From Bacteriovoracaceae bacterium UBA2428 (GTDB lineage: Bacteria; Bdellovibrionota; UBA2428), in NCBI GenBank assembly GCA_002343545.1, contig DDRA01000041.1:3920-44298 (forward strand): 40,379 nt of DNA. Reading direction: 5' to 3'. Both the position numbers and the translations under genes were made by a program. Position 1 is the stretch's first letter. Every line of letters begins with the position of its first letter. Positions 5,146-28,464 of the stretch are shown here, in pieces. The notes beneath the pieces are model-generated. The model did not search any database and was not told the origin of the DNA. It worked only from the letters and a program-made list of their open reading frames with translations.

Positions 5146-5625
5146 ATGGGATTCATCTTTTGGAACCTCGACGAGCTGAAGGCGCGGCTTCGCGGGGGGA
5201 CGCTCAGCGAAGCGCATTCGCTCGTCTACTGGATCCTGAGCATCGGATTTCTTCTGCTCGATCCGCTCGCGGCGCGCTCCGTCGAGACGAGCGTCTGGGA
5301 CTGGGTGCTCGCGGGCGTGGGTCTCGCGTCCGTCGGCGTCGGCGGTTGGCGGGCCTACCGCTGGAACGGCGGCGCGGAGGGCAAAGACTTCCTCAAACGT
5401 CTCGTCGCCATCGCCTGGGTCGTGGGCTTCCGCATCCAGCTGCGCGCGCTGCTGCTGCTCGCCCTCGCGGGCCCGATCGTGGGGCTCGCGCTCTTCCATT
5501 CTCCGACGACCTCCTGGCCGGAGGTCGTCGTGTTCGGCGGCATCGAGATCTTCGTGTGGTTCCGCGTCGTGCGGGAGTTCCGCGATATGGCGGCCGCGCC
5601 CGCCGAAGCCGCGAAGGCGGTCTAG
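5146..5625 (+). CDS. Small multi-pass membrane protein of unknown function
   Basis: The 159-aa product has four likely membrane segments: about residues 22-41 (LVYWILSIGFLLLDP...), 49-66 (WVLAGVGLASVGVGG), 84-112 (LVAIAWVVGF...LLLLALAGPIVGLAL) and 123-136 (VVVFGGIEIFVWF), with basic loops between. I do not recognise a family. The ATG at 5146 is chosen because the frame upstream is made of the dispersed repeat. The gene follows the desaturase on the same strand. Its stop codon shares a CTAG palindrome with the stop of the convergent prepilin/S74 gene, so the two genes overlap by 4 nt tail to tail. Confidence 0.65.
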   Translation: MGFIFWNLDELKARLRGGTLSEAHSLVYWILSIGFLLLDPLAARSVETSVWDWVLAGVGLASVGVGGWRAYRWNGGAEGKDFLKRLVAIAWVVGFRIQLRALLLLALAGPIVGLALFHSPTTSWPEVVVFGGIEIFVWFRVVREFRDMAAAPAEAAKAV

Positions 5626-6578
5626 CGTCGTTCGAGCGCCGAGAGGCGTCGCTCGAGGTCGCGGATCTCGTTTTCGCGCTCGTGCTGGTCTTCGCGGGCC
5701 GCTTTGATGCCCTCGACGAGCAAGGGGGCGACGCCGTCGTAGCGCAGCAGGCGCAGCCCGGCGTCGTTGCTTTGCACGATCTCGGGAGACTTCGCTTCGA
5801 CTTCCTGCGCGAGGAGGCCCAGATGGGGCCGTCCGTTCATTCGGTAGCGGTATCCTTGCAGATCCGCGAGGCGCGGGCCCGCCGAGTCCAGCGTGCGGAT
5901 GTCGGACTTCGCTCGCTCGTCCGAAAGCGAGAGGTACTCCTGCGCCTTCAGCGATCCACCCGTCGAAGCGAGCGTCTGGACCGTGAGGAATCCGAAGACC
6001 CGGAAGTCGCCGTTCTTGACCTCGGCCGGCGCGCCGACCCCGTGGTCCTGGCGGACGTAAGAATTGCGGAGAACCTGGTCGCCGTCCATGAAGCAGGTGT
6101 AAAAGGCCCCGCCGCGTTTTTCGACTCGGATGGGGATCGTGCGCGTGATCGCGGGCGCGTTGCCCGCCAGAAAGCCTCGCCCTTCGTAGCTCAGGCTGAG
6201 ATCGAAGCGGTCTTCGGTGGCCGAGACGGCGACGAAGTTCCGCACGGCCATCGACGAAAGGCGGACCCGATCGTTGCGGTAGTTCGTGTTCGTGCGGTAA
6301 AGCACGCCCCGGTCGGCGTGGTTGATCTGCGTCACGGAGGGGTTCGCCGAAAGCGGCAGCGCCGAGAAGGTCAGGTTGCAAGTGCTCGGGATCCAGAGCG
6401 CCCGACGGATGTCGAGGTGCAGGAAGTTCACCTCGTTGAAGACCTCGAGGCTGCGCACGTTATTCTGGTAAGTCTGCATGAACTTGGAAAGCTGGGTGAA
6501 GGCGACGCCGAGAAGCCCGATGGCCACGACGGCTTCCGTGACGCCGAAGCCCTGGAGCCATCTTTTGCCGTTTTTCAT
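5622..6578 (-). CDS. Prepilin-like N-terminus fused to an S74 intramolecular chaperone
   Basis: The 318-aa protein starts with a type IV prepilin signature: a short basic leader, then cleavage after QG and FGVTEAVVAIGLLGVAF, with Glu at mature position 5. The middle (about 40-210) is beta-rich and unassigned. The C-terminus is a Peptidase_S74 endosialidase-type chaperone, SDERAKSDIRTL (candidate dyad Ser219/Lys224), GLLAQEVEAKSPEIV, then a Glu/Arg-rich coiled coil (about 292-318). S74 domains trimerise fibres and usually cut themselves off. It is the last gene of the radical SAM operon, its ATG overlapping the stop of the DUF483-like gene (ATGA). A second protein with the same ends lies at 20227-21207. 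Pseudopilin or surface-fibre role is inferred. Confidence 0.8.
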   Translation of the reverse strand: MKNGKRWLQGFGVTEAVVAIGLLGVAFTQLSKFMQTYQNNVRSLEVFNEVNFLHLDIRRALWIPSTCNLTFSALPLSANPSVTQINHADRGVLYRTNTNYRNDRVRLSSMAVRNFVAVSATEDRFDLSLSYEGRGFLAGNAPAITRTIPIRVEKRGGAFYTCFMDGDQVLRNSYVRQDHGVGAPAEVKNGDFRVFGFLTVQTLASTGGSLKAQEYLSLSDERAKSDIRTLDSAGPRLADLQGYRYRMNGRPHLGLLAQEVEAKSPEIVQSNDAGLRLLRYDGVAPLLVEGIKAAREDQHERENEIRDLERRLSALERR

Positions 6579-7252
6579 CCCAGATCCCCCGTGAAGCGTA
6601 GTTCGATCCCCGCGGGGCCGAGCGCGCCGCCCCTACAGGATAAACAGGAATCCTCGGGTCGCCAAGCCGGCACCCCCGTCAGGAGGCCCAGGCGGCGGCG
6701 CGCGATGCGGAGCGCGTCGGGACAGTCAAAGCGGCACGGGAAGAAACTCAGGATGCGTTGGGAAAGCACGGGGCTCATGATCCGCTCGAAGCGGGAGAGC
6801 CCGCGCGCCCGCGCGTTGCGGATCGCGGCGCTCAGATAGGGGTGGCTCGTGACGAGCGTGTCGTCGCGCCCCGCGGCCAGGGCGCGGTGGGTTTCCACGA
6901 AGGCGGCGCGGCAGCACGCCGGATAACCGAGTCGGCTTCCGATCTCGTCGTGTCGGTCCTTCGCCTCGAAGGCCGCGATGAGGCCTTGAACCGCTTCCGC
7001 GTCACCCGCCACGAAAACCTCGAAGTCGTCGTCGTGGCGTCGCCGCTCGTCGTGGCCGCCGAAGATATCGCGTCCCGATTCCGGCGTGTTTCGGAGTCCC
7101 CAGGCCACCCCCGCCGCGTCTAGGCGCTCGAGCAACGGAACGAGGTGGGGATCGCGCACGGAGAGCCGGGCGGCGCCGCGCCAACCTTCGCGGAACTCGA
7201 GAAAGTCGAGACCGTCGGGGCGCGAGAGACCGGGCACAGGAAGCGGGCTCAC
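6575..7252 (-). CDS. DUF483-like protein with LGYPACC motif
   Basis: Predicted 225-aa product starting with GTG at 7252, which overlaps the TGA of the upstream gene (GTGA). The centre contains SRLGYPACCRAAFVETH, the LGYPxCC signature that I associate with DUF483-like proteins. The C-terminus carries two further cysteine pairs, FFPCRFDCPDALRIARR and EDSCLSCRGG, which suggests a metal or Fe-S site. An acidic/His region (GGHDERRRHDDDFEVF) precedes the motif. A longer open frame exists upstream but it is out-of-frame translation of the neighbour. Its place at the end of a radical SAM operon suggests a role in cofactor or product handling; this is inference. The function of the family is not known to me. 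Confidence 0.65.
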   Translation of the reverse strand: MSPLPVPGLSRPDGLDFLEFREGWRGAARLSVRDPHLVPLLERLDAAGVAWGLRNTPESGRDIFGGHDERRRHDDDFEVFVAGDAEAVQGLIAAFEAKDRHDEIGSRLGYPACCRAAFVETHRALAAGRDDTLVTSHPYLSAAIRNARARGLSRFERIMSPVLSQRILSFFPCRFDCPDALRIARRRLGLLTGVPAWRPEDSCLSCRGGALGPAGIELRFTGDLG

Positions 7253-7659
7253 GCGGAGACCTCTTCCAGGTCGTCGACGTCGAGCTCGAGCCCGCCCATC
7301 GGCACGGCGTTCGGCGGGCGCGTTCGGCAGCGCACGACGACGAAGCGGATCTCGGTGCGGTAGCCTTCTTCTTTCTCGAGGGAGCTGTTGAGGACCCGAC
7401 GCAGTTCCCCGAGGGAGCGAATTCCCATCTCTTCCGTCAGGTAAAGGACGTTGTTGTTGATCGCCCAAAATTCCTGCCACAGGGGGTAGTAGAAGCGGCC
7501 CGCGTGCCCCAGGAAGACGATCGTTTCACGGTCGGCGCGCAGCCGGCGGAAGGAATCCACGCTCCACGCGATGCCGTCACCGTCGTTCGCGTCGAGGCCG
7601 AGCGTGCCCCCCGCGAAAGGCGCGAGACGCGCGAAAAGATCATCCCAGCCCGCGGACAT
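7249..7659 (-). CDS. Hypothetical protein of the radical SAM operon (136 aa)
   Basis: I do not recognise this 136-aa protein. It begins MSAGWDDLFARL, contains ETIVFLGHAGRFYYPLWQEFWAINN, and ends with an acidic tail (LELDVDDLEEVSA). It is soluble, with one cysteine (VVVRCRTRPP). Its ATG lies 20 nt inside the end of the upstream gene and its TGA overlaps the GTG of the DUF483-like gene, so it is very likely translated together with both. Codon use and base composition match the neighbours. It probably works as an accessory or partner protein in the same system. Confidence 0.65.
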   Translation of the reverse strand: MSAGWDDLFARLAPFAGGTLGLDANDGDGIAWSVDSFRRLRADRETIVFLGHAGRFYYPLWQEFWAINNNVLYLTEEMGIRSLGELRRVLNSSLEKEEGYRTEIRFVVVRCRTRPPNAVPMGGLELDVDDLEEVSA

Positions 7660-8416
7660 CCGTCACTCCGAGGGGTTTGGTCCAGCGAATCGGGAGGGGA
7701 AGCGGAAGCGCGTCGGGGGCCGCGACGACGGGCGCGCCGAAGGAAAAATCGTTCAGGCGACGCTCGAGCCGCGCGGGATCCGCGCGCAGACGCCCGAGCC
7801 CCTCGGCGTCGAACTCGAGCCGCGCCATGACTTCGCCGCGAAAGCAAAGGCGCCGTCGCCGCGGCTCCGCGAGCCAGACCCCGAGCTCCGCGAGCGCGCG
7901 CTCGCGCGGGACCGCGAGATCCGCGGCGGCGACGTCGCGGCAGGCGTCGTAGCCGACGCGCACGCGCCGGGCTTCGAAGCGCAAGAGGCTGCCCATGAGG
8001 TAGTAGCTCTGCTCCTCGAGGGGGGCTTCGTCCGTCGCGTCGACGTCGATCACGGCGAGCGAGTAGGCCCGCGGAAGCCGCGCGCGGTCGAGGGCCCGCT
8101 CGCGGAGCAGGGCCTTGAGATCGGCTTCGCGGCGCTGTTCGTTGCGGCTGCCTTCGCCGAAGGCGAGGCCCGCGAGCGCCTCGTTCGCGCGGAACCAGTC
8201 CTCGCGCCGCGCCGAAACTTCGCTCCGCTGAGCGAGTTCGAGGAGAGCGATCCAATTCAGGAAGGGCGGATTCCGCAGGGTCTCCCACCAGGGCGTGCGC
8301 ATGCGGTAGAGGCCCGGGAATTCGTCGGCCGAGGCGAGGATCGTGCGGAGCGTGACGAGGTCGTCCGCGCGGGCGAGCGCGGCCGCGTCGAGTCGGCCCC
8401 GGGGTGGCGCGCTCAC
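7640..8416 (-). CDS. Hypothetical protein of the radical SAM operon (258 aa)
   Basis: Unrecognised 258-aa soluble protein. The GTG start at 8416 is chosen because it forms a GTGA overlap with the stop of the preceding gene, the rule in this operon; the longer frame upstream is a shadow. Visible features are an N-terminal helical part (LNWIALLELAQRSEVSARREDWFRANEALAG), a central SLAVIDVDATDEAPLEEQSYYLMGSLLRF stretch, and an Arg-rich EPRRRRLCFRGEVMARLEF segment. Cys residues are few and not clustered, so an Fe-S role is unlikely. It overlaps the next gene by 20 nt. Confidence 0.62.
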   Translation of the reverse strand: MSAPPRGRLDAAALARADDLVTLRTILASADEFPGLYRMRTPWWETLRNPPFLNWIALLELAQRSEVSARREDWFRANEALAGLAFGEGSRNEQRREADLKALLRERALDRARLPRAYSLAVIDVDATDEAPLEEQSYYLMGSLLRFEARRVRVGYDACRDVAAADLAVPRERALAELGVWLAEPRRRRLCFRGEVMARLEFDAEGLGRLRADPARLERRLNDFSFGAPVVAAPDALPLPLPIRWTKPLGVTDVRGLG

Positions 8417-8853
8417 GCCGAGAACTCCTCGAGAAAATACCCGAGCGTCTTGCGGAGCGAGGCCGACGCGGGAGGGGCTCCGCGGCTCGAGGGAAGTTGG
8501 GGCGCGCCGGCGAGGATGGCGTCGTAGAGAGCGCGCGCGTCCGAGTAGGGTCGGAAGTGTCGATCGCTGCCCCAAAAGAGCTCGGGGTCGTCGAGCGACG
8601 CGAGCAAAGGCGTGCCGAAACGTTCTTCGATCCAATGAGCGTAGAGGACGGCCACGCCGAGGGACTTCGAGGGAAAACTCAGCGGCGGATCCTCGCCGCG
8701 CAGGTAGGCGAGGGCGTTCGCCACGGTCTCGGCCTCGTCGCGGTCCTGGGCGTAGCCGAGCGTCTCGATGTCGTCTTCCCAGCGCTCGGGGCGGCGGAGA
8801 TGGAGGTAGGCCCATTGGCGAAGCTTGTGCTCGGGCGGGGGCGCGGCGCTCAT
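8413..8853 (-). CDS. Hypothetical protein of the radical SAM operon (146 aa)
   Basis: Predicted 146-aa protein starting at an ATG that overlaps the TGA of the upstream radical SAM gene (ATGA). It begins MSAAPPPEHKLRQWAYLHLRRPERWEDD and continues with helical segments (TVANALAYLRGEDPPLSFPSKSLGVAVLYAHWIEERFG). It has no cysteine and no membrane segment. I cannot assign a family. The size and helical character would fit a peptide-binding or adaptor subunit, but nothing proves this. Confidence 0.62.
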   Translation of the reverse strand: MSAAPPPEHKLRQWAYLHLRRPERWEDDIETLGYAQDRDEAETVANALAYLRGEDPPLSFPSKSLGVAVLYAHWIEERFGTPLLASLDDPELFWGSDRHFRPYSDARALYDAILAGAPQLPSSRGAPPASASLRKTLGYFLEEFSA

Positions 8854-9800
8854 CGGCAAAGCTCCGGCGGGTCGTCCAGCAATCCGCGTAGTCCGTTGCA
8901 GGAATCGCCCGGATCGGCGTGCACCGGCTGCAGGTGCTCGCTCAGGCAGTGACCGAGGTGCGGGCAGCGCGAGCAGGTCGGGTGCTCGCGGATGAGACGT
9001 TTTTCGCGCTCCGTCCAGTCGACGTAAGCGTCGAAGGAGGCGAGGCGCGAGAAGCGCTCGCGGCCCTCGTCGTCGAAATCGAGCACGGCGAGGGCGCCCG
9101 AAGGATCGATGTAAAGGTGGTCGTCCGACCAGGACCGCTTTTCGCGGCGGAGCGACCGCGCGACGAGGTCGGCGTTCACGAGCTCGAAGCGGAAGCCGGG
9201 CGCGCGCTCGATCCAGCGGCGGATCCACGTTTCCGTCTCGCGGTAGCGCACGGGCTGGGGATGGTGGGGGTTGAGCGAGTAGGGCTTGATCTCGACGCTC
9301 TCGACCTGCGGCGTCTCGTCGAGGATCCGCATGAAGCGTTCGAGCTCCGCGGCGTCGAGGTCGAGCAGGCGACGGCTCGCGAGCACGAGCACGTGCACGC
9401 CGCGTTTGAGCGCGCGGAGGTTGGCGAGGGTCGCCTCGAAGCGGGGGCGCGCGACGTAGTCCCAGCTCACGGAGAGGTCGACGTCCTCGCGCTCGAAGTA
9501 GGGATGGGCGACGCTCAGGTTCGTGACGACGTTCACGCGCTCCCGGTAGAAGACGCGCAGGACCCGCCAAAGCTCGTCCCAATACGCGGGCTCGAGGAGC
9601 CCGACCTCGCCCCCGTAAAGGTCGACGTGCGCGATGCGGCGGTAGCGCGAGATCTCGAGCAAGCGTTCGAGCAGGCGCTCGGGGTCGAGTCGGTCGCGGC
9701 GGGCGAGCTCGGCGGGGCTCAGGTAGCAGAAGTCGCAGCGGAAGTTGCAGAGCGTGGACGGATTGATGGAAAGGTTGATCTCGTCCATCGCCGGGCTCAC
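8850..9800 (-). CDS. Radical SAM protein F
   Basis: A 316-aa radical SAM enzyme. The CX3CX2C cluster motif CNFRCDFC (Cys18, 22, 25) binds the [4Fe-4S] that cleaves S-adenosylmethionine, and the GGE motif follows in VDLYGGEVGLL. The C-terminus holds another cysteine group, HPTCSRCPHLGHC, with two later Cys (DSCNG, ELCR), a short SPASM/twitch-like region that may hold an auxiliary cluster. Start: GTG at 9800 forms the GTGA overlap usual in this operon; an ATG at 9788 (MDEINLS) is an alternative. It lies directly after radical SAM E. Substrate unknown; by context the CX3-repeat protein encoded at 15917-16630 is the best candidate. Confidence 0.85.
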   Translation of the reverse strand: MSPAMDEINLSINPSTLCNFRCDFCYLSPAELARRDRLDPERLLERLLEISRYRRIAHVDLYGGEVGLLEPAYWDELWRVLRVFYRERVNVVTNLSVAHPYFEREDVDLSVSWDYVARPRFEATLANLRALKRGVHVLVLASRRLLDLDAAELERFMRILDETPQVESVEIKPYSLNPHHPQPVRYRETETWIRRWIERAPGFRFELVNADLVARSLRREKRSWSDDHLYIDPSGALAVLDFDDEGRERFSRLASFDAYVDWTEREKRLIREHPTCSRCPHLGHCLSEHLQPVHADPGDSCNGLRGLLDDPPELCR

Positions 9801-10795
9801 GACACGTAGGGCCGCAGCTCGGGGAGCAACCCCTGCATGAGACCGCAGTGCTCCTCGACCCGCCCTTCCGCTTTGAGGTCGGAGATCGTCTTCTTGCAGC
9901 CGTTGCAGATCGCGAAGAGGGGGCAACCCAGGCACTCCGGCTTCAGGAAGGCCAGGCGTTCGTCGGCCTCGAGGGGCGTTTGCACGGGGCCGCCACGGAG
10001 CACTTCGGCGTCGAAGTCGACGGCGTGGCTCTTGTCGTCGCCGAAGGCGCCGCAGCTGTAGTAATCGCCCTCGGGTTGGAGGCAGCGGATGTTCGAGTCG
10101 CAGTCGCGGCTGAGCGGGCAGGTCGTGCCGAGCCTTCCTCGTAGGGCGAGGAGCTGCTTGGAGTTGTACTCCCACTCGGCGAGCCCTTCGGCGATGACGT
10201 CGAGGTAGACGCGGTAGACGTGGCCCTTCAGGAAGCTGCGCGACTGCAGGCCCGAGGCGACGGCGTAATTGAGCTTGCACTCGACGTCCATGCGGCGCGC
10301 GAGCCTCACGTTCTCGATCGCCCCGGCGTGGTTCTCGGGCGTGATGACCGAGATGAAGTCCGGGCGGTAGCCGACGCGCTCGAGGAAGAGATCCGAGACG
10401 GCCCAGAACTTTTCTTCCGTAAAGACCTCGGCGTGCGAGATGCGGCGCGTGTCGCCGTAGTGGAACGAAGTCGTCACGCCGACGCGCTCGTGGCGGAAGA
10501 GCGGCGTCCAGACGTCCGGCTTCAGGTAGAAGAGCCAGAGGTTCGACGTGAAGCTGAGCGTCGTCGGCAGGCCCTCGCGTTCGATGTACGCGAGGATCTT
10601 CCAGTAGTATTCGGGCGGCATCATGAGCGGGTCGCCGCCGTTGAGGATGATCGTCGAGGTCTGCGGGAAACGGCGCAGGAAGGCGTAGATGCGTTCGAGC
10701 TCGAGGGTCGTCGCGCGGTCGTCGACGAGGGCCGTCGAACTGCAGAAGCTGCACTTGAAGTTGCAACGCTCCGTGGGTTTGACGATGAGCTCCAC
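9797..10795 (-). CDS. Radical SAM/SPASM-like protein E
   Basis: The 332-aa product starts at GTG 10795 with GGGGAG upstream and 9-nt spacing, close to the iron-sulfur motif CNFKCSFC (Cys11, 15, 18). The SAM-binding GGD variant is in ILNGGDPLMMPPEYY. The C-terminal third has many cysteines: TTCPLSRDCDSNIRC, YYSCGAFGDD and ECLGCPLFAICNGCKK plus EEHC, the pattern of a SPASM domain with auxiliary clusters. SPASM proteins typically modify peptides or proteins. The start lies 2 nt after the stop of radical SAM D. A longer upstream frame is the wrong-frame read of D. Confidence 0.87.
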   Translation of the reverse strand: MELIVKPTERCNFKCSFCSSTALVDDRATTLELERIYAFLRRFPQTSTIILNGGDPLMMPPEYYWKILAYIEREGLPTTLSFTSNLWLFYLKPDVWTPLFRHERVGVTTSFHYGDTRRISHAEVFTEEKFWAVSDLFLERVGYRPDFISVITPENHAGAIENVRLARRMDVECKLNYAVASGLQSRSFLKGHVYRVYLDVIAEGLAEWEYNSKQLLALRGRLGTTCPLSRDCDSNIRCLQPEGDYYSCGAFGDDKSHAVDFDAEVLRGGPVQTPLEADERLAFLKPECLGCPLFAICNGCKKTISDLKAEGRVEEHCGLMQGLLPELRPYVS

Positions 10796-10797
10796 GT

Positions 10798-11841
10798 TCA
10801 GGCGCTCCCCGCGGGCCGCACGGGGTGGCGGCGGAAGAAATCCTTGAAGAGGCACTCCTCGCGGCGTTGCCGCTTGGACCAATCGGCCTGCACGAAGCAA
10901 CGGAAGCCGCAGCGCCCGAAGAACTCGCAGCCGAGGCACTCGTTCTCCTGGAGGTGCCCCCAGATGATGTTCTCGTTCGACGTCGCGTCGACCTCGTGTC
11001 GGAAGTCACCCGGCTTGTACGTGAGGTAGCGGCACTTCACCTGGCGGCCGTCGGGCAGGATCGTCGTCTTGTTGAGGGAGTAGCAGGTCATCGCGTTGCG
11101 CTCGCGCTCGAGCAGATCGCGCACGGGCTGGATGCGGGGGTAGCGCTCGGCCACGAAGTGGTAGGCCGAGAGGATCTCGTCGTCGCTCGGCATGAGGGCC
11201 GAGGCGCCGCTTTCGGGCACGTAGTAATCGAAGTAGAGATCGTAGCGTGCGTAGAGTTCGCGGAAAAACGCGTCGCCATCGGCGAGCAGCGCGCGGATCG
11301 TGGGTTTCGTCAGCACGAAGCCCACGGTGTGGACTCGGTGGGCGAAGGCTTCGAGGTTGGCGCGGAAGACCTCGATCGACCAACGCCCGGCCTGCCGACC
11401 GTGCAGGTCGTACGAGGTCGCAAGGAAGGCGGGAATCCCCTCTTCGTCGAGGTGTGCGAGCAGGCGCTCGACGCGGTCGCGCCGGTCGAAGATGAAGTTC
11501 GTGACCCAGTTGAAGCGGCAGCGGTGACCGAGTTCGCGAGCCCCGCGGGCGACCTTCGTCGCGAGGTCGGCGTAGGCTTCGAAGGCTTCGTCGGGTAAGT
11601 CGTCGGCGAAGAGTTCGCCGCCCATGAGATTGATCGTATGGTCGCGGCGCGGATTCGCGCGGATGAATTCAAGAATCGGCTTGGCCTTTTCGCGGATGCT
11701 CGCGAGTCCCGTGTCGTCGTCGTGGTCCTGGCCGCAGAAGGCGCAGCGCAGGTTGCAACGCTCGAAAAGGTGGACTTCGATCTCGGAGGAAAGCGGGGCC
11801 TTCGACTCCAGGAGTCTCGCGAGGGGCGACGTCGTGCTCAC
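10798..11841 (-). CDS. Radical SAM/SPASM-like protein D
   Basis: A 347-aa radical SAM protein with CNLRCAFC (Cys29, 33, 36) and NLMGGELFADD as SAM motif. The C-terminus carries MTCYSLN, VKCRYLTYKPGD, ECLGCEFFGRCGFRC and EECLFKDF, a SPASM-type set of cysteines for auxiliary clusters. GTG 11841 overlaps the TGA of the upstream gene. It resembles E and F in layout and the three may descend from one ancestor, though they are clearly diverged. Acts presumably in the cytoplasm on the same substrate as the rest of the operon. Confidence 0.87.
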   Translation of the reverse strand: MSTTSPLARLLESKAPLSSEIEVHLFERCNLRCAFCGQDHDDDTGLASIREKAKPILEFIRANPRRDHTINLMGGELFADDLPDEAFEAYADLATKVARGARELGHRCRFNWVTNFIFDRRDRVERLLAHLDEEGIPAFLATSYDLHGRQAGRWSIEVFRANLEAFAHRVHTVGFVLTKPTIRALLADGDAFFRELYARYDLYFDYYVPESGASALMPSDDEILSAYHFVAERYPRIQPVRDLLERERNAMTCYSLNKTTILPDGRQVKCRYLTYKPGDFRHEVDATSNENIIWGHLQENECLGCEFFGRCGFRCFVQADWSKRQRREECLFKDFFRRHPVRPAGSA

Positions 11842-13712: not shown

Positions 13713-14866
13713 GGCCGGGCCTCGGTCACGGGGGACTCCTTTTTGAGTTCGGGAAGCCTTTCGAGGGCTTCGTCCAGTTTGCCGCGGAATACGGCGAGGT
13801 GTTCGCGTTGGTAGCGGAGCGCGGCGAGCGAGAGCGGGCACTCGGCTTCGTTTTCGTTGAAGAGATGGGCTTCGCAGTTGCCCCCGCAGACGTCGAAAAA
13901 TTCGCAACCGTTGCAGAGAGGCTGGAGCGGGGTCGCAAGCTGCTCGACGTGGTCGCCGAGGGCCTTCGCCGCGAAAGCCGGCCAGTTCGCGGCCATCTCG
14001 CGGACCGTCGAAAGGGGCCGGATATAAGTCTCGTCCGGGCAGAGGCCCACCGTGGCGTCCGCGTTCATCGTGAAGGTACGATGCCGGCAGCAGTTGCACT
14101 TGCACTGGTAGATCTTGTTCTCGACGAAGCTCTTCGTGAAGAGGTCGACCTGGGGGAGCGCCCACGAGGTCCGGTTCTCGGCGTAGTGGCGCACGATGCT
14201 CGCGAAGTAGCGCGACCACTCCACGTTCGAGACCCGGAGGTCGCGGGTTTTCTCGTCGAAGAAAGTCAGGAACTCGAAGTCGACCGATTTGGCGCCGTCG
14301 AGACGGCGCACGACCTCGAGGGGATCCGTCTTGAGGAGGTGGCGCTGCACCGTGATCGCGACGGCCATTTCGATGCCGGCGTCCGCGAGGAAGCGGAAAT
14401 TTCGGAAGAAGAGTTCCTCGCCGAGGCGCGGGCTCCCCGTCTCGAAACGGATGCCGGGGTCCCACGAAACGCCGATCTGTCCGGCGTACTCCCGCTTGAG
14501 GAAATCGGCGAAGGCCGCGTCGACCGGGTACATGAGGTTCGTCTGCGGGATGATGTCGAAGCGGCGACCCGCGAAAATCCGTCGGATGAGCGCGTTGACC
14601 TGCGCGAGGTAGGCCTTCGGCGCGAGGAAGGGCTCGCCGCCGTGGATGTAAAAGACGTTCTGCCGGGTGTCGAGCCGCTCGCGCAGCGTCGTCAAGAAGA
14701 GCTCGATCTCGCCGAGATCCGCGAGCCGGAAGGCGTCGCGGTTACCGAGCGTGAAGCAGTGGGTACAATTCAAGTTGCAACCTCGCACGACGCGCAGGTA
14801 GACGACGTTGAAATCGCGGTCGAAGTGGTCCGTGGCGTCCTTCACGCGCGCCTCACCCGAGCACAT
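13709..14866 (-). CDS. Radical SAM/SPASM protein B2 (paralogue of B1)
   Basis: A 385-aa SPASM radical SAM enzyme. It has CNLNCTHC (Cys30, 34, 37) and IHGGEPFL, then a full SPASM region: YQCKCNCCRHRTFTMNADATVGLCPDE, PLCNGCEFFDVCGGNC and a last ECPLS. This is the architecture of peptide and protein maturases such as anaerobic sulfatase-maturing enzymes. It is related to B1 at 17636-18703 (same T..(I/M)NAD.T.G.CP.. and C..C..(F/Y)D(V/I)C.G.C blocks). ATG 14866 overlaps the A2 gene by 14 nt; GTG 14845 is an alternative start. It carries an extra Cys-rich CKCNCC patch. Confidence 0.9.
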   Translation of the reverse strand: MCSGEARVKDATDHFDRDFNVVYLRVVRGCNLNCTHCFTLGNRDAFRLADLGEIELFLTTLRERLDTRQNVFYIHGGEPFLAPKAYLAQVNALIRRIFAGRRFDIIPQTNLMYPVDAAFADFLKREYAGQIGVSWDPGIRFETGSPRLGEELFFRNFRFLADAGIEMAVAITVQRHLLKTDPLEVVRRLDGAKSVDFEFLTFFDEKTRDLRVSNVEWSRYFASIVRHYAENRTSWALPQVDLFTKSFVENKIYQCKCNCCRHRTFTMNADATVGLCPDETYIRPLSTVREMAANWPAFAAKALGDHVEQLATPLQPLCNGCEFFDVCGGNCEAHLFNENEAECPLSLAALRYQREHLAVFRGKLDEALERLPELKKESPVTEARP

Positions 14867-15917
14867 AAGGCTCCAGTTCCTGGGCTCGCCCGTCGCGCAT
14901 GCGTTCGTAGACGAAGGCCGGAAAAATCTGACTCGAGCGCCCGCGCAGGGAATCGTTCACGAAGATGCAGCCGTAGCCCTTCGCGACGTTCTCGTGGAGG
15001 AGCTCTTCGTAACGTCCGGCGAAGACCGTGGCCGTTTGGAGGATCGGGTCCATTTTGGCGTCGGGGTCGGCGCCCCAGGCCCGCTGGAGACGCGCGTGAA
15101 GATCCGAAAACAGATCGACGGGATAGCGGCGTCGAATTTCGTCCCGGTGCTCAAAGTCGAAGTCCTCGTCGACCATCCAGCTGAGCAGGGGGTGCGATGC
15201 GAGCGTCGCCGAGACGGAGGCCGGCGATTCGAAGTCGACCCGCAAACCGGGAACGATCCGCGCGACATCGTGGAAGGAGTTCAGGATCTCGCCGCGCAGG
15301 ATTTCGACGTCGTTGAACCAGACGCGCCAGGCGAGCTCCTCGAGCCGCGCGAGAAAGGCCGCGCGGTAGGGACCTTCGGGACGGGCCGCGTAGTCGGCCA
15401 GTAGATACTCAAAGCCCACCGCCGACTTGTCGAGGGAGCGGAGTCCTTCGACGACGGGCAGGCGTTCGAAGAGCGCGAGGATCTCGGCGTCGGGAGTGCG
15501 CGCCTGCGCGAGGAGGGCGCGTTGAAGATCGGCGCGCGTGACGGGGCCGAAGTCCTGCTCGGCGAAGGAACGCAGCCATTCATCGCTCTGCCAAAGACGG
15601 GCGAGACGTAGGACGTCGGCGCCGCTCGCGCGCGGGAAGAGCCCCTTCCAATACTGAAGCTGAAGTCGAAGGTAGAGCGCGGGATCGGCGTAGACGCGTT
15701 CGCGTCGTCTTTCGAGCAAGGCGGCCCAGAAAGCCTCCTCGCTTCCGCCGTGGTGTTCCTGCAAGTGTTCCTCGAAGGTCGGGACGTGTCCGATCGCCTG
15801 CCCGACCCCCCGCGAGATGGGGTGCGCCGTGGCCACGCTGCTCAGAACGAGGGGGTCTCCGCCTGTGGCAAAGAGACACTCGTGCTCGAGGTAGACGCGG
15901 TGGGCGAGGTGGAACAC
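14853..15917 (-). CDS. Protein A2, paralogue of A1, partner of radical SAM B2
   Basis: Predicted 354-aa protein starting at GTG 15917, whose first base is the last base of the precursor gene's TAG (TAGTG). It is clearly paralogous to the protein at 18700-19785. Both begin (V/M)FH..(H/L)RRVY-type, share GFEYLLA then GPYR.AFL, then (Y/L)LSW..DE..D, and close with (F/Y)GC..V...L. Each copy lies directly upstream of a SPASM radical SAM gene. It has no clustered cysteines and no signal peptide. I do not know the family. A role as peptide-recognition or scaffolding partner of the B enzymes is inferred from the repeated pairing. Confidence 0.75.
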   Translation of the reverse strand: MFHLAHRVYLEHECLFATGGDPLVLSSVATAHPISRGVGQAIGHVPTFEEHLQEHHGGSEEAFWAALLERRRERVYADPALYLRLQLQYWKGLFPRASGADVLRLARLWQSDEWLRSFAEQDFGPVTRADLQRALLAQARTPDAEILALFERLPVVEGLRSLDKSAVGFEYLLADYAARPEGPYRAAFLARLEELAWRVWFNDVEILRGEILNSFHDVARIVPGLRVDFESPASVSATLASHPLLSWMVDEDFDFEHRDEIRRRYPVDLFSDLHARLQRAWGADPDAKMDPILQTATVFAGRYEELLHENVAKGYGCIFVNDSLRGRSSQIFPAFVYERMRDGRAQELEPYVLG

Positions 15918-16630
15918 TAACGGCGTCCCCGCGATCCGTGGCAGTTCGAGTGGCAGTTCGAGTGACAAGCCACGGCCTGGGCGCCCGTGCCGACCCCGAG
16001 GTCCTTCGCATTGCTGGTGTTGCTGCGGGCCGCCGTGAAGGCCGTCAGCAGGTTCGCCATGAAGGTCGTGATCTGCGCGGCCGTGACGGGATTCCCCGCG
16101 GCCGGCGCGGGGGTACCCGGGGGAAGGGTCAGCGTGAGCTTGTTCGCGTCGGAAAGCGCGGCCATGACGGGCGCGCCGAAGTAATCTTGGATGCCGCCCG
16201 GCGCGCCGGGGACGCCCGTCACGCGGAAGCGCGCCCGCGCGAGGCGGATGCGCGTCAGCTTCTCGGCCATGCTTTGGAGGGCCACAAAAAGGTTCGGGAG
16301 TCCGCCCGGCGGCGTCGCGGCGGCTTTGTCGCCGGCGGCGGCGAGCCCCGCGAGCGTCGGCACGGGTTCGTTGCGGGGGCCGAGCTCGAGGTGAGGCGAT
16401 CCCGGCGCGGTCGAGGGCGGCAGGTTGTACGTGTGCACGTTCGCCGTGACGTTTGTGATGGTGTAACCCGCCGGCACGGGTACCGGGATCGTGCCCGAGA
16501 TCGGCTGGCCGGTATACCAAACGGCGACGTTCATCGTCGGGGTATGGAAGTCCGCCGTGAAACGCTGAAGGATTTCCGTGAGGGAGAGTTTATTGCCGGG
16601 CGCGGTCGGAGGGGGCGGGGGGGCCGTCAT
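15917..16630 (-). CDS. Candidate precursor protein with C-terminal CX3-repeat tail
   Basis: A 237-aa protein with a Pro-rich start (MTAPPPPPTAPGNKLSLTEIL), a long small-residue body, and the tail ACHSNCHSNCHGSRGRR. The three tail cysteines (222, 226, 230) are the only ones in the protein, spaced exactly four apart, each followed by His. This is what a RiPP-like substrate of radical SAM/SPASM enzymes would look like, and I recall annotated CXXX-repeat peptide/radical SAM systems of similar kind. The gene lies 1 nt after radical SAM C1 and touches A2. The unusually long leader (about 220 aa) could be a folded carrier domain. Alternatives: a metal- or haem-binding tail, since CHSNCH is CX3CH. 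Precursor function is inferred. Confidence 0.72.
   Translation of the reverse strand: MTAPPPPPTAPGNKLSLTEILQRFTADFHTPTMNVAVWYTGQPISGTIPVPVPAGYTITNVTANVHTYNLPPSTAPGSPHLELGPRNEPVPTLAGLAAAGDKAAATPPGGLPNLFVALQSMAEKLTRIRLARARFRVTGVPGAPGGIQDYFGAPVMAALSDANKLTLTLPPGTPAPAAGNPVTAAQITTFMANLLTAFTAARSNTSNAKDLGVGTGAQAVACHSNCHSNCHGSRGRR
15939..15962 (-). repeat. Perfect 12-bp tandem repeat encoding the CHSN units
   Basis: On the plus strand the 12-mer TGGCAGTTCGAG occurs twice back to back. On the coding strand it encodes two Ser-Asn-Cys-His registers, giving the CHSNCHSN core of the candidate precursor. A third, partly diverged unit (TGT instead of TGC for the first Cys) lies on one side and the CHGS unit on the other. 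Identical codons point to recent expansion of the tail by unit duplication. Confidence 0.85.
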
Positions 16631-16631
16631 C

Positions 16632-17639
16632 TCAAGACTCCTTGTGGTGGCAGCCGAGCCCGTAATGGTGCGCGGCCATGAAATAGCCTTTGCCTTGGCA
16701 GTGGCGTAATTCGGGGCAGTTTTCGCAGTCGTCGTCGACGGGCAGATTCTCCGCCTGGAGCCGGGCGTAAGTCGATAGGTAGGCGTCGAAGCTGGGGGCC
16801 GAGAGCGTGAAGGCCGGATCGTCGACGAAGAGATACTCGTCGAAGGGGAGAATCGGGGTCAGGAAGATCCGTCCGTCTTTGAAGACAAAGGAGGGCTTGC
16901 GGAGGAGCGTGCGCTCGGTCAGCGCCGGCTCGCGGCGGCTCATTTCGGCGCGCAAAAAACGCACAAGCGGGAAGCTCCCACGGAGCAAATCGCGACGCGT
17001 GGCCTTGGGCAGCTTCGCGTTGAAAAGGTAGGTGAAGTTGAGCTCGAGGATGCGGTCGTCCGAGCCGCGCTCGGCGAAGCCCGCGAGCGTGCCGAGCTCG
17101 CGCTCCGAGTGCTTGGCCCCCGTGTTGAGGGCGAGGTTGATCTGGATGCGGCCCGCGTAACGGGTCCGTAGCTCGCGGAGTTGGGCGAGCAAGAAGCTCT
17201 CGTAGGCGGGGTCTTCCAGCCGCGCCTCGATGAGGTTGACGTGAAGCTCGATCCCCTGCCCGGGAAAATCCGCGAAAAAAGAGTCGAGGAACCGGGCGTC
17301 GTAGCCCTCGCGCAGGGTCGAGGCGAGGCCGACGTAACGAAAGCTTCGCAGGGACTCGCGAAGCTTCTCGTCGCGGAAGATGTCGTAGTTGAAGTCGTTC
17401 TCGAAGACGTCCGTCGGGAGCAGGTAACACGTCTCGAGCTGGAAACCGTTCGCGCGGAGATCCGTGGCGAGCGCGAGGACGTCGTCGTAGCGCTCGACCC
17501 GGTTGTCCGTCTTTCGGTAGTAGCAATGCGCGCAGCCCCCGCCGCACTCGTTGAACGAAAAAAGACGGAACTCGACCAGCCGGAACGGGTCGCCGTATTT
17601 TCCGTAGAGTTGGGGGGCGGGTAACGCGCTCATGCTCAC
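16632..17639 (-). CDS. Radical SAM protein C1
   Basis: This 335-aa protein has the motif CGGGCAHC (Cys32, 36, 39) preceded by FRLFSFNE. As in its paralogue C2, a PTD element (YLLPTDVFE) stands where GGE is usual. The C-terminus has DDDCENCPELRHCQGKGYF, then a His/Cys tail AAHHYGLGCHHKES, so an auxiliary cluster is possible. The start GTG 17639 gives the GTGA overlap with B1; an in-frame ATG lies two codons later. It ends 1 nt before the candidate precursor gene, which makes it the nearest enzyme to the proposed substrate. Confidence 0.83.
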   Translation of the reverse strand: MSMSALPAPQLYGKYGDPFRLVEFRLFSFNECGGGCAHCYYRKTDNRVERYDDVLALATDLRANGFQLETCYLLPTDVFENDFNYDIFRDEKLRESLRSFRYVGLASTLREGYDARFLDSFFADFPGQGIELHVNLIEARLEDPAYESFLLAQLRELRTRYAGRIQINLALNTGAKHSERELGTLAGFAERGSDDRILELNFTYLFNAKLPKATRRDLLRGSFPLVRFLRAEMSRREPALTERTLLRKPSFVFKDGRIFLTPILPFDEYLFVDDPAFTLSAPSFDAYLSTYARLQAENLPVDDDCENCPELRHCQGKGYFMAAHHYGLGCHHKES

Positions 17640-18703
17640 TCTTGGCCCATGAAGCCGTTCATCATTTCCTTGTAGAGCCCCAGATTCTTTTCGGCCGCGA
17701 GCTTCATCATGAGCGACTTCGGCGCCGGACAGGCGTCGTCCCACGCGAGTTGGTGGCAGTCGCCGTTGCAGATGTCGTAGACGGGGCAAGTGCCGCACTC
17801 GGGGTGCCGCAGGCTCTCGCTCTGGATGTTGCAAAGCCGGCACGGGCTGTAGAGGACCTGCTCGATGGGGTCGCGGATCGTGCCGTAGAACTTGTTGGGC
17901 GCGTCGTTCGGGCAGCCGCCGATCGTGCCGTCCGCGTTGATCGTGAAGATCTTCTGCTCGCACTGCCGCGAGCGGCAACCCGAGTAGGTGTTGTGGACGA
18001 GCGAGGTCAGGATCGAGTCGAGGAACATGTTGTCGACGCGTTCCCAGCTGCGCGTGGCCACGCACTGGTCCCACATCTTGAGGAACCAGCCGTCGAGGGC
18101 GCGGTTCGTCGGGAAGATGCCGCGGTTGCCGAGGGCGTTGCCGTTCGGCGTGATGCGCTCGAAGTTGACGTGTTTGATGCCGAGCTCGGCCATCTCGTCG
18201 AGGATGCGGATCGGCTCGTAGTCCGCGAGCAGCGCCGAGTTCAGGCTGACCATGGCGGTGATTTGGTAGCCGTCTTTGGCGAGCTGGCGCACGTTGTCTT
18301 CCCAGAGGGCCTTCTGCATCGGGTGCGTCCAGCGGATCTTGTAGTCCCAGGAGGTGCCGATGGACTTTTGGCAGATCTTCTCGAAGACGGAGAGCTTGTC
18401 GGGATTGAGCAGGTAAGTCAGGTTCGTCTGCACGCCCCACCAAACTTTGGGCCACAGATCCTTGATGCCTTCCCAGGCTTCGAAGAGCAGTTCGGTGGGG
18501 GCGAGCATGGGCTCGCCGCCGTGGAAGGAAATGTTGCCGCCTTCGTAGTGGGGATGCACGCGATGGAGCTCGCGGAAGAAGCGGATCGTTTGCGGGACGT
18601 CGAACCAGCCCTTCTTGCCGTTGCTTCCGTTCGTGAAGCAATGGTCGCAGTTGAGTTGGCAGGTGTCGGTCGTTTTTAGGTAGACGATGAGATCTTTGGT
18701 CAT
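17636..18703 (-). CDS. Radical SAM/SPASM protein B1
   Basis: A 355-aa SPASM radical SAM enzyme. CQLNCDHC (Cys15, 19, 22) and ISFHGGEPMLAP are followed by SGCRSRQCEQKIFTINADGTIGGCPND, SPCRLCN, and ECGTCPVYDICNGDC with a final DACPAPK: a complete SPASM domain expected to hold two auxiliary [4Fe-4S] clusters. It is the closest of the seven to known peptide/protein maturases. ATG 18703 overlaps the A1 stop (ATGA) and its TGA overlaps the C1 start. Related to B2 at 13709-14866. Confidence 0.92.
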   Translation of the reverse strand: MTKDLIVYLKTTDTCQLNCDHCFTNGSNGKKGWFDVPQTIRFFRELHRVHPHYEGGNISFHGGEPMLAPTELLFEAWEGIKDLWPKVWWGVQTNLTYLLNPDKLSVFEKICQKSIGTSWDYKIRWTHPMQKALWEDNVRQLAKDGYQITAMVSLNSALLADYEPIRILDEMAELGIKHVNFERITPNGNALGNRGIFPTNRALDGWFLKMWDQCVATRSWERVDNMFLDSILTSLVHNTYSGCRSRQCEQKIFTINADGTIGGCPNDAPNKFYGTIRDPIEQVLYSPCRLCNIQSESLRHPECGTCPVYDICNGDCHQLAWDDACPAPKSLMMKLAAEKNLGLYKEMMNGFMGQE

Positions 18704-19785
18704 GCCCTCTCCTGTGCGTGCGTCGCGACGAGCCTCGCTTTCAGCTGAAGCCTTCGACGAACGCGATCCCCCCCCTCGTTATGCTCACGGTAAAGGAGCC
18801 CCGTCCAGACCTGGTTCGCTTTTGGGAGCATGGCGTTGTCGACGTAGACGCAACCGAAGTTGCGCTGGAGGTTCTTGTCGAAGAGGAGCTCCCACTCGCC
18901 GCGCTGAATGGCGTCTGTGATCCAACTCAGGTTATCGAGCGAGACTTCTTCTTCGGGCGTGCGGCCCACGGGCGCGCGATAACGAATCCAATTATCATAA
19001 AGCGTCGCGAAGATGGAAAGGTCGTAGTTGCAACGCACGTAGTCGATGTTGTCGTAGTCGAGGTTCTCGTCGAGCAACCACGAGAGGTAGCGGTTGTTCG
19101 GGATCTGGTACTCGACGTCTTCGCTCGGATCGATCTTGTGGCCTTCGGGCAAAAGAAGGTTGATGTCGTTATAGAGGCCGTTGATGACCTGGGCCCGGAT
19201 GACGCCGAACTCCTGCAGGATCTGCTCCCACGAGAAGAGCTCGATCTTGCGCAGAAAGGCATCGCGGTAGGGGCCCCGACGCTCCCCCAAGAAACTCGCG
19301 AGCAGATATTCGAAGCCGATGGCGTCGGGGCGAAGTGGGACTTCGATCGGAGGGACGCTCGCGGCGGCCTCGGCCGCTTCGCCGCGGTCGAGGCGGGCCG
19401 GGCGACTGGGTCCGCGGGCGTGGTTGAAGGAGAACCCGAGCGGATTCGCCTTGAGTCGTTCGTCTTTGTTGGCCGTTTCGTGGAGCCAGGCCAGGTTTTC
19501 GCTCGAAGTTTCCTCGAGCACGGCTTTCCAGAGGGCCGCCTGCACGCGTAGGCGCGAGAAGCGATCCACGAAGAGGACGCGCTTCGTGCCGCTTTCGTCC
19601 CATTCGAGCAGGAGTCGTTCCCAACGACCGCCGCGTCGGTCGAGGAAGGCCTCGAAGCTCGGGGCCTCTTCGAGCACGCGCCCCGAGCTCGGCTCGAAGA
19701 CGAGCACGGGGGCCCGCTTGGCCAGGAGCTCGCGGGGACGGCGCTCCGTGTCTTCGACGTAGACCCGACGGAGGCAGTGAAACAC
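18700..19785 (-). CDS. Protein A1, partner of radical SAM B1
   Basis: A 361-aa protein of unknown family that starts with GTG 19785 (MFHCLRRVYVE). It is paralogous to A2 at 14853-15917. Shared blocks are IGFEYLLA, RGPYRDAFL, NRYLSWLLDENLDYDN and FGCVYVDNAMLP. The central portion is acidic and helix-rich; there is no transmembrane segment or cysteine cluster. It is the second gene of the operon, 3 nt after the Tat-signal gene and overlapping B1. The strict A-then-B order in both modules suggests A and B act as a complex. Confidence 0.75.
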   Translation of the reverse strand: MFHCLRRVYVEDTERRPRELLAKRAPVLVFEPSSGRVLEEAPSFEAFLDRRGGRWERLLLEWDESGTKRVLFVDRFSRLRVQAALWKAVLEETSSENLAWLHETANKDERLKANPLGFSFNHARGPSRPARLDRGEAAEAAASVPPIEVPLRPDAIGFEYLLASFLGERRGPYRDAFLRKIELFSWEQILQEFGVIRAQVINGLYNDINLLLPEGHKIDPSEDVEYQIPNNRYLSWLLDENLDYDNIDYVRCNYDLSIFATLYDNWIRYRAPVGRTPEEEVSLDNLSWITDAIQRGEWELLFDKNLQRNFGCVYVDNAMLPKANQVWTGLLYREHNEGGDRVRRRLQLKARLVATHAQERA

Positions 19786-19788
19786 GGC

Positions 19789-20142
19789 TTAGAGCAATTC
19801 CCACTCGCCCGCGCGGGCGCGGAAGACGAGGGCGAAGTCGGCCGCCACGTCGACCTCGAGATCGGAGAGGCTACCGAGGATGGGGCGTCCCGAGCCGCCG
19901 ATGCGGGCGGGGGCCGCCGCGTTGAGGGCCGTCGAACGGAATCTCACCGTTTCGCCGTCGCTCGGCGCTTCGGGCAGAACGCAACGCTCGCCCGCGCTCA
20001 GCGTCCAGGGGAGGGAGCGGGCGCCCGCGTTCGCGTCCCCCGCGACGCCCGTCGCGCGAAGGAGGGTGGGCGCGGCTTCCCCCGCGAGCGGCGCGCTGGC
20101 CAATCCCGTGAGCAGGTTCCTGAAGAAAGTTCGACGATCCAT
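19789..20142 (-). CDS. Small Tat-signal protein, first gene of the radical SAM operon
   Basis: The 117-aa product begins MDRRTFFRNLLTGLASAPLAGEA, a twin-arginine signal (RRTFF) with a hydrophobic stretch and an A-x-A-like end, so it is likely exported folded. The remaining ~90 residues are beta-rich: a Gly/Ala-rich section, GETVRFRST, then GSLSDLEVDVAADFALVFRARAGEWEL, which resembles the small beta modules in phage-tail-like proteins that end in a W-x-L strand. A strong GGGAGGGGAG site lies just before its ATG. Export by Tat fits proteins that carry a cofactor or fold in the cytoplasm. I cannot assign a family. Confidence 0.7.
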   Translation of the reverse strand: MDRRTFFRNLLTGLASAPLAGEAAPTLLRATGVAGDANAGARSLPWTLSAGERCVLPEAPSDGETVRFRSTALNAAAPARIGGSGRPILGSLSDLEVDVAADFALVFRARAGEWELL

Positions 20143-20226
20143 CGCGGTCTCCCCTCCCGGCGTTCCAGTTGTTCCAAGCTTCGGATAGTATCAAAATCGG
20201 TAGGAACGAAAAGGGGGAGTCTCGCG
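20143..20226. promoter_or_regulatory. Divergent promoter region of the radical SAM operon and the S74/G2 pair
   Basis: The 84 bp between two divergent ATGs is the only non-coding gap upstream of the 17-gene operon, so it should hold both promoters. Toward the plus strand a weak sigma70-type pair is visible: TTCCAG at 20163-20168 and TAGTAT at 20186-20191 with a 17-nt spacer, followed by a GGGGGAG ribosome site (20213-20219). Toward the minus strand the same AT-rich spot reads TACTAT, but no good -35 is seen. Shared control of both arms is likely. Confidence 0.4.
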
Positions 20227-28056: not shown

Positions 28057-28464
28057 ATGAACGCAGTCGTCCATTGCACCAACTTCTCCAAGACTTCGGC
28101 GATCGAGAACTTCGTGAGAGAGAAGTTCGAACCGCTCATCGAGCGCATCGCCGCGGAGAAAGTGCGCCTCTTCGAAGTTCACCTGTCCGTCGAGAATTCG
28201 CGTGAACAACCCGGAGAGGATATCTTCGTTTGCCAGGTCCATATGTCCGGTCGTCGTCTTACCGAAATCGTGCTCAAGAAGACCTCGAACAACATGTACC
28301 GCGCGATTTCCGCGGCCGCCAAGGCGCTCCATTCGCTCGTGCCGAAGGCGAAGGATCGCTACCGGAAAAAGGTGCGTGGGCTCCACCACCGCACCGACAA
28401 ATGGCACCGCTGGCAGGCCCTCATGGCGGGCATGACGCCGGCCCTCACGGCGAGCCACGGCTGA
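28057..28464 (+). CDS. Ribosome hibernation-promoting factor family protein
   Basis: From ATG 28057, preceded by GGAAGGAG, the product is 135 aa. The pattern matches HPF/RaiA (sigma-54 modulation) proteins: an N-terminal strand, the helix SAIENFVREKFEPLIERI, then VCQVHMSGRRLTEIVLKK, and a second helix NMYRAISAAAKALHSLVPKAKDRYRKKV. The basic C-terminal LHHRTDKWHRW tail is unusual. The protein would bind the 30S decoding region in slow growth. The gene's end overlaps the convergent thiL by 20 nt. Confidence 0.68.
   Translation: MNAVVHCTNFSKTSAIENFVREKFEPLIERIAAEKVRLFEVHLSVENSREQPGEDIFVCQVHMSGRRLTEIVLKKTSNNMYRAISAAAKALHSLVPKAKDRYRKKVRGLHHRTDKWHRWQALMAGMTPALTASHG

Follow-up and report, generated by a model that had tools for sequence, protein, structure and literature searches.

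A candidate phage-type radical SAM cassette acting on a Cys-His-tailed protein in jumbo phages and Bdellovibrionota

The window analyzed here is a 40,379-nucleotide stretch of contig DDRA01000041.1 from Bacteriovoracaceae bacterium UBA2428 (GCA_002343545.1), a 3.37-Mb metagenome-assembled genome (MAG) that is 74% complete. It contains a minus-strand operon that encodes seven radical S-adenosylmethionine (rSAM) enzymes together with a protein of 237 amino acids (aa) ending in the tail CHSNCHSNCHGSRGRR. In our judgement, this operon is probably a maturation cassette of phage type, in which the rSAM enzymes would modify the tail of an attachment protein associated with a fibre. That the tail is the substrate of these enzymes is very likely from the sequence comparisons below, whereas a place for the product in a fibre or virion is only somewhat favoured. 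This reading builds on directly observed gene content, synteny, tail conservation, co-occurrence, bacterial flanks and fibre-type neighbours.

Conservation of the tail and its enzymes

All three Cys residues of the 237-aa protein sit in its tail, and both protein and tail are exactly as an earlier note on this DNA had described them. In the window the DNA pattern of the tail is found a single time, and 100 shuffles gave no match. A phmmer search of 5.8 billion proteins returned three others, all with the C-terminus CHxxCHxxCHxSRGRR, and a profile built from these four proteins, scored against just the 7,996 candidates with the most words in common, picked up 507 proteins at E <= 1. Among the best 120 of the 507, which include the window protein itself, the C-terminus CHxxCHxxCHxxR[GS]RR is present in 120 and Cys is confined to the tail in 107. 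In an alignment of 105 of these 120, the commonest residue averages 0.94 in frequency across the tail and 0.67 across the body. Since four tail-bearing proteins made up the profile, the set is biased towards the tail.

At the DNA level, a search of IMG/VR for CHxxCHxxCHxx followed by the codons MGN RGN MGN MGN gave at least 144 matches in at least 120 viral stretches. A stop codon immediately follows the tail in all 144 matches listed; Ser occupies the free positions 4, 8 and 12 in 137, 118 and 132 of them, and positions 13, 15 and 16 are Arg throughout, though the pattern also permits AGY Ser. In the species-genome collection the pattern was found 25 times in 22 stretches, with a stop directly after 17 of the matches (14 loci); the remaining eight loci hold no rSAM relative and look like chance. 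We take the tail to mark an unnamed protein family whose members are roughly 120-310 aa long. The tail protein also resembles phrog_35144 (E 8e-5, last 20 residues).

Of 134 true tail loci (120 viral, of at least 120, and 14 from genomes; stretches of 1.8-14.9 kb), 128 contain at least one rSAM relative and 6 do not, versus none of the eight chance loci. B is present in 94, rSAM1 in 91, rSAM5 in 70, an upstream fibre gene of the Atu_ph07/Phosso type in 69 and a cupin gene in 65 (gene names as in Table 1), and one stretch (L078) holds as many as ten rSAM relatives. Most often the genes run in the order fibre gene, cupin, rSAM1, tail protein, B, (A), rSAM5, rSAM6, rSAM7, p145 and 2-oxoglutarate (2OG) oxygenase. 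In a second viral type, one or two short tail proteins are accompanied by several rSAM4-like genes. Loci such as L004, L030, L048 and L077 have a tandem pair of ~130-aa CH-tail proteins followed by several rSAM4-like genes, and neither rSAM1 nor B lies beside the tail proteins on the stretch covered.

Conversely, viral loci gathered with an rSAM6 profile, blind to the tail (best 80 of 322 confirmed viral stretches), carry a CH tail in 55 of the 56 cases with 10 kb upstream and in 7 of the 24 with less than 10 kb. The single exception, L228, may have its tail protein outside the stretch covered. A triplet-shuffled control gave a tail in 0/56 under the looser of two tail definitions. Some of these contigs are shared with the tail-pattern set, and some are near-copies. 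An L161-type sub-group (L161:6922-7440 and alike) has the tail CHSNCHSNCHGSI or similar, without RGRR, in a small cluster with rSAM1 and rSAM6 (two rSAM genes on the L161 stretch), suggesting that RGRR is not always needed.

The linkage extends to bacteria. Among 368 genomes of the same phylum, 18 hold rSAM6 orthologues (E <= 1e-40), the same 18 hold rSAM1, and 17 of these hold the tail protein. The earlier note had staked its one-system reading on the genes recurring together with variable tails, and on the tail being kept in genomes that hold the enzymes. The cluster genes do recur jointly in phages, IMG/VR contigs and phylum genomes, the tail is retained at the 55 viral loci and in the 17 bacterial genomes given above, and variant tails occur in eight bacterial genomes. 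The one-system reading is thereby supported on both of the counts on which that note had said it could fail.

Isolated jumbo phages carry the same set. The PHROG matches of window proteins are B to phrog_20767 (2.5e-54), rSAM1 to phrog_1802 (4e-51) and A1 to phrog_36207 (5e-5). In tblastn searches of 50,697 phage records, B, rSAM1, rSAM6 and rSAM7 each match the same seven records, and rSAM4 matches four, all within those seven. These records represent six phages: Burkholderia FLC6, FLC8 and SURPRISE13, Agrobacterium Atu_ph07 (twice), Sinorhizobium Phosso and Pseudomonas DT01. In all six, the gene after rSAM1 carries a C-terminal tail, which is CHSSCHTSCHGSRGRR in three phages and otherwise CHSSCHASCHNSRSRR, CHTSCHASCHSSRSRR or CHTSCHTSCHSARGRR. 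Identity between window and phage proteins ranges from about 21% (A; DT01 rSAM4-like genes) to 53% (rSAM6), and the phage clusters also hold cupin and 2OG-Fe(II) oxygenase genes. The FLC6 rSAM cluster (L124:18307-19520) has two genes annotated as dihydrofolate reductase inside it. The window order A1-rSAM1-rSAM2-tail-A2-rSAM3-B-rSAM4 is partly matched by viral L088 and L024, and by L169, a 183-kb viral contig, at almost every gene, p258 and the DUF483-like protein among them. For the most part this is a phage system adjoining tail-fibre genes, and its bacterial form has fibre-type neighbours; neither aspect was part of the earlier note's reading.

The window operon and its bacterial relatives

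In the window, thirteen minus-strand genes run from 20142 to 8413 with inter-gene spacings of -14 to +3 nt, as computed with assumed gene starts, some chosen by hand. Four more minus-strand open reading frames (ORFs) extend the run to 5622, and the 17 genes originally proposed are a fair count when the 136-aa ORF at 7249-7659 is included (Table 1). The two A proteins are indeed paralogues (26% identity, E 2e-28), the LGYPACC protein is present and has a DUF483 match that stays under the cut-off (20.1 vs 25 bits), and the product of the last gene has the proposed Peptidase_S74 domain (35.5 vs 22 bits) behind an N-terminus that is pilin-like by eye.

Table 1. Features of the operon and its divergent neighbours in the window
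Feature	Position	Strand	Remarks
117-aa protein, operon gene 1	19789..20142	-	Tat-like N-terminus by eye
A1, unknown protein	18700..19785	-	weak match to phage family phrog_36207
rSAM1, SPASM-type	17636..18703	-	34-46% identity with jumbo-phage proteins; phrog_1802
rSAM2, CX3CX2C	16632..17636	-	relatives in L024, L088, L133, L145, L169
Candidate substrate, 237 aa	15917..16630	-	C-terminal tail CHSNCHSNCHGSRGRR; DNA pattern at 15921-15967
A2, paralogue of A1	14853..15923	-	start assumed
rSAM3, SPASM-type	13709..14866	-	CX3CX2C; SPASM model match below cut-off
B, accessory protein	12936..13709	-	phrog_20767, E 2.5e-54
rSAM4	11838..12935	-	39-40% identity with FLC6 gp75
rSAM5, SPASM-type	10798..11835	-	48% identity with FLC6 gp76; start assumed
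rSAM6, SPASM-type	9797..10798	-	49-53% identity with jumbo-phage proteins; start assumed
rSAM7	8850..9797	-	36-42% identity with jumbo-phage proteins; start assumed
145-aa accessory protein (p145)	8413..8850	-	also in phages DT01 and Phosso
p258, accessory protein	7640..8416	-	relatives in L169, L228, G098 (= G265)
136-aa ORF between p258 and DUF483-like gene	7249..7659	-	
DUF483-like protein with LGYPACC	6575..7480	-	relative in viral L169, 37%
Pilin-like N-terminus (by eye) and Peptidase_S74 (fibre chaperone) domain	5622..6578	-	
ORF with pilin-like stretch and Peptidase_S74, divergent from operon	19777..21207	+	true start probably ~20.2 kb
G2-like protein, 208 aa	21209..21835	+	C-terminus NGRHWVRVR; in 15/18 phylum genomes with rSAM6

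A CX3CX2C motif lies near the N-terminus in all seven proposed rSAM proteins. Pfam Radical_SAM (PF04055) is matched at gathering score by rSAM7, rSAM6, rSAM3 and rSAM1, and below the 29.5-bit threshold by rSAM5 (26.0 bits) and rSAM4 (19.0); rSAM2 has no match to it despite its motif. SPASM-like regions had been proposed for four or more of the enzymes, and TIGR04085 does match rSAM1, 3, 5 and 6, though just rSAM1 reaches the cut-off (27.3 vs 27). Neither a Pfam nor an NCBIfam cut-off was reached by the candidate substrate, A1, A2, B, the DUF483-like protein or the 117-, 145-, 258- and 136-aa proteins, the 136-aa ORF having no Pfam or NCBIfam match at all, and no NCBIfam equivalog cut-off was reached by the operon proteins tested or by ten relatives of the tail protein. 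The structure of B is predicted confidently (predicted local distance difference test, pLDDT, 92), and no clear relative of its fold was found among solved structures. Four of ten proteins tested have weak PADLOC pVip matches (E 8.5e-6 to 1.4e-7), as would be expected if the rSAM set served in viperin-type defence or counter-defence; with scores of 19-25 bits (best 25.3) against an NCBIfam prokaryotic viperin cut-off of 180, and with the set adjoining structural genes in phages, this explanation is hardly credible.

The window copy looks chromosomal. Judged by eye, one flank of the operon looks bacterial, with a FeoB-like gene at 21843, a ThiL-like gene at 28445 and others, and the opposite flank has TolC, MFP and desaturase domains by Pfam. 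Several of the 18 cluster-bearing genomes coincide with Bdellovibrionaceae, Bacteriovorax and Halobacteriovoraceae records, and G190, also among the 18, is a single 4.15-Mb contig in which genes that look by eye like those for ribosomal S2, EF-Ts and PyrH stand at a distance of ~8 kb from the cluster. Small ORFs resembling the 117-aa protein, again by eye, adjoin the clusters of G126, G141, G084, G190 and G081. A prophage or jumbo-phage fragment stranded in the MAG, with no cellular role, would account for the phage-like gene set, and is very unlikely given the housekeeping-like flanks, the relative in a 4.15-Mb single-contig genome, and the S74, G2-like and Tat-type neighbours that recur across bacteria. 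In a tree of rSAM6 (70 of 137 rows plus outgroup), 15 of 16 bacterial rows group with 6 viral rows (97/81), which makes it likely that the cassette has been exchanged between phages and Bdellovibrionota; the tree gives no direction. One bacterial cluster (G100 = G126) contains a 579-aa protein with Radical_SAM and sub-cut-off B12-binding domains (L155:3572-5308), and ORFs like it, by size and start alone, occur in G103 (= G084), L161 and L228.

Tail variants, likely chemistry and known systems

Tails were found at 15 of the 18 bacterial loci, seven with C-H-x-x spacing and eight as variants. The variants are CHGNFPPPCHGSRGRR in G168, G172, G167 and G173, CHTNVPTPPPCHASRGRR in G190, CHSNHCSHSNHGSRGRR in G081, CHSNCYTPPPKSRSRR in G061, where the tail ends a 109-aa stop-to-stop ORF adjoining rSAM1, and CHSSHSSHSSHSSRGRR in G193 (L273:4283-4915), which is a plain H-x-S repeat. 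In G192 (L150) and G132 (L145) a regular tail lies on a separate contig, and G164 has no tail protein within 15 of the 27.9 kb of its contig. Across the bacterial variants, H-x-[S/N] and R[GS]RR persist.

Several rSAM enzymes, helped by A, B and the 145-aa protein, would alter the C-terminal tail of a ~120-310-aa protein. This tail is a run of H-x-[S/N] units, which in the main class number three and have the form C-H-x-[S/N], and R[GS]RR comes after them. Most likely, the enzymes would work successively on the H-x-S repeats; A and B would assist them, and the R[GS]RR end would serve for recognition or anchoring. His-centred or Cys-His cross-links appear the likeliest products. A purely Cys-based change is no longer favoured, since in eight bacterial genomes the Cys residues differ in number and spacing, whereas both H-x-[S/N] and R[GS]RR are retained.

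Regular Cys-His repeats would also fit metal binding, and the tail could be a metal- or cluster-binding end, comparable to metal-bound spike tips, that undergoes no covalent change, with the rSAM enzymes acting instead on the fibre protein, tRNA, DNA or surface glycans. The cupin and 2OG-Fe(II) oxygenase genes of the phage clusters do point to a broader chemistry. However, the tail tracks the enzymes at nearly every viral locus with sufficient upstream sequence, whereas a fibre-type gene is recognized in about half of the tail loci; a fixed metal site would not readily allow the differing Cys spacing of the eight bacterial variants; and four of the enzymes have SPASM-like regions. We therefore regard metal binding without modification as unlikely.

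Covalent modification by rSAM enzymes would have parallels in known systems. His-Xaa-Ser (Hxs) systems combine rSAM enzymes with a protein that has a C-terminal H-x-S repeat. H-x-[S/N] units near the C-terminus are likewise present in the window tail and its variants, as a plain repeat in G193, where a stretch of 23 residues close to the end of the tail matches HxsA2 (23.9 bits, E 6e-5). This match is under the cut-off of 48 and spans the repeat alone, while no Hxs substrate model picks up the window protein, ten relatives or the three further variants tested. For the HxsC-type maturase, the best score is that of rSAM6, at 26.7 vs 267.9 bits. In addition, the main-class unit here is C-H-x-[S/N], stretches hold up to ten rSAM relatives, and the setting is that of phages. 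As a plain repeat with this sub-cut-off match, the G193 tail may form a bridge to the His-Xaa-Ser family of systems.

SynChlorMet, FibroRumin, ranthipeptide and cyclophane cassettes, in which SPASM-type rSAM enzymes adjoin a Cys-rich substrate, form a second point of comparison, and the joint conservation of enzymes and substrate across genomes that is looked for in cassettes for ribosomally synthesized and post-translationally modified peptides (RiPPs) is found here as well. The present system differs in its large structured substrate, its fibre neighbours and the absence of any equivalog match at cut-off. If the tail protein were a usual RiPP precursor, its modified C-terminus would be cut off and released as an antimicrobial or signal, and a multi-rSAM operon with a Cys-rich substrate and TolC and MFP genes nearby has the appearance of such a pathway. 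This outcome is distinctly unlikely, in that the substrate, at ~120-310 aa, is no short leader but a conserved protein, general Pfam/NCBIfam scans name no operon protease (except the self-cleaving S74 type) or ABC exporter, and the phage neighbours are structural genes. The TolC and MFP genes, moreover, are separated from the operon by two plus-strand genes, and none were seen beside four relatives.

Radical SAM genes in phages have been described before, in FLC6 (PMC8066314), SURPRISE13 (PMC11898562), phiRP12/RP31 (PMC5468394) and Campylobacter phage IBB_35 (PMC3322345), as eight genes in a structural cluster of 332-Vera that was called 'highly unusual' (PMC12390700), and as cassettes in the host-recognition region of pelagimyophages (PMC7029224). 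From their genomes, the FLC6 and SURPRISE13 clusters are the same system; 332-Vera, RP31 and the pelagimyophages were compared by published description only. The portions of these accounts that were available name no substrate, tail protein or bacterial counterpart, most subscription papers lying outside the search, and a full-text literature search for the tail letters returned no phage or radical-enzyme paper.

Fibre neighbours and biological meaning

In four isolated phages, the upstream genes belong to tail-fibre, tail or virion-structural families. For Atu_ph07, 131 virion proteins have been reported, most within coding sequences (CDS) 31-76, 170-215 and 284-329, and the paper's names for head genes gp198 and gp204 and baseplate gene gp181 match the record, as far as the available part of that paper extends (PMC6102473). 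The tail protein is encoded by CDS 170. The viral fibre gene encodes a C-terminal domain that in L045 matches Peptidase_G2 (PF11962; 28.6 vs 25 bits), and a profile of this fibre end matches a gp12-type preneck appendage protein. The bacterial G2-like protein, in contrast, matches the preneck appendage weakly (E 0.04); the window copy (P0122) has no Pfam match, and neither it nor the Atu_ph07 upstream gene matches PF11962.

Eleven of the 18 bacterial loci have S74-pilin and G2-like genes on their flanks (window, G265, G126, G141, G084, G168, G172, G167, G173, G190 and G081); the other seven are G061 and six stretches of just 3-15 kb. The G2-like gene occurs in 20 of the 368 phylum genomes, 15 of them among the 18 with rSAM6, where 1.0 would be expected (p 7e-20, a nominal value that ignores the relatedness of the genomes). 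A Peptidase_S74 end is present in the window protein at 5622-6578 and in P0121, recalling the mosaic adhesive trimer (MAT) fibres of Bdellovibrio, phage-like S74 proteins on the predator surface that function in prey recognition (PMC10769870). The MAT proteins, whose signal peptide is followed by a conserved beta-rich domain, are about 1,000 aa long, whereas the S74 proteins here have 318-430 aa and a pilin-like start, and the word 'radical' does not appear in the main text of the MAT paper (PMC10769870).

Several observations weigh against a fibre-associated maturation cassette. Fibre-type genes were recognized in just 69 of the 134 tail loci, and the viral locus counts are not independent, because the sets overlap and contain near-copies. 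In a profile comparison, the bacterial G2-like protein shows only weak similarity to the viral fibre end (13.9% probability, E 0.002), G061 has neither an S74 nor a G2-like flank in 32 kb, and G061, G164 and G193 have no G2-like gene anywhere in the genome. The 9.5-kb contig of G193 carries a phage-type fibre gene and a cupin gene, and may itself be phage. Conversely, five genomes without rSAM6 hold the G2-like protein: in G058, G044 and G214 it stands beside a different multi-rSAM cluster with another Cys-rich protein, in G263 S74 and rSAM-motif ORFs are near it, and in G146 the contig ends. The virion presence of gp170 is read from the boundary of a range (CDS 170-215) in the available part of the Atu_ph07 paper (PMC6102473). 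Finally, the substrate has a structure model of fair confidence (pLDDT 70.8, with about 54 in the tail), for which no solved fold gave a match.

A second multi-rSAM cluster adjoins G2-like and Tat-type genes in L276:667-10687, L277:8839-19995 and L279:1672-12234. It has 5-7 CX3CX2C ORFs and a 150-187-aa Cys-rich protein ending in repeats such as CNTDCACNAVCTCHNDCGCHY, and is perhaps a sister system with another tail.

With these points weighed, we continue to favour a cassette that finishes the tail of a fibre-associated attachment protein. In jumbo phages, the finished protein would be a tail-fibre-associated virion protein, either part of the fibre or mounted on it. In Bdellovibrionota, it would belong to a surface fibre built with the S74-pilin and G2-like neighbours, for attachment to prey or surfaces. 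More tentatively, and with some doubt on our part, jumbo phages may finish a fibre-linked tip with a battery of rSAM enzymes, cupins and 2OG-iron oxygenases, leaving a [CHxS]3 end that is cross-linked or carries metal, which would be virion maturation of a categorically new type. Predatory-type bacteria may mount the same kind of tip on S74-pilin/G2-like fibres for prey attachment, and the little-understood Hxs systems may be cellular cousins of the cassette.

The rSAM blocks of jumbo phages can now be assigned a candidate substrate whose signature spans 16 residues, along with a defined set of genes and with isolated phages that carry it. In addition, several protein-modifying radical enzyme families without a curated name come into view, together with a possible bridge to the His-Xaa-Ser systems. 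If this reading is correct, viruses perform radical chemistry on their own structural proteins, predator-related bacteria and phages have an apparatus for maturing attachment fibres in common, and fibre-linked proteins would be finished by a chemical route that has not been described.

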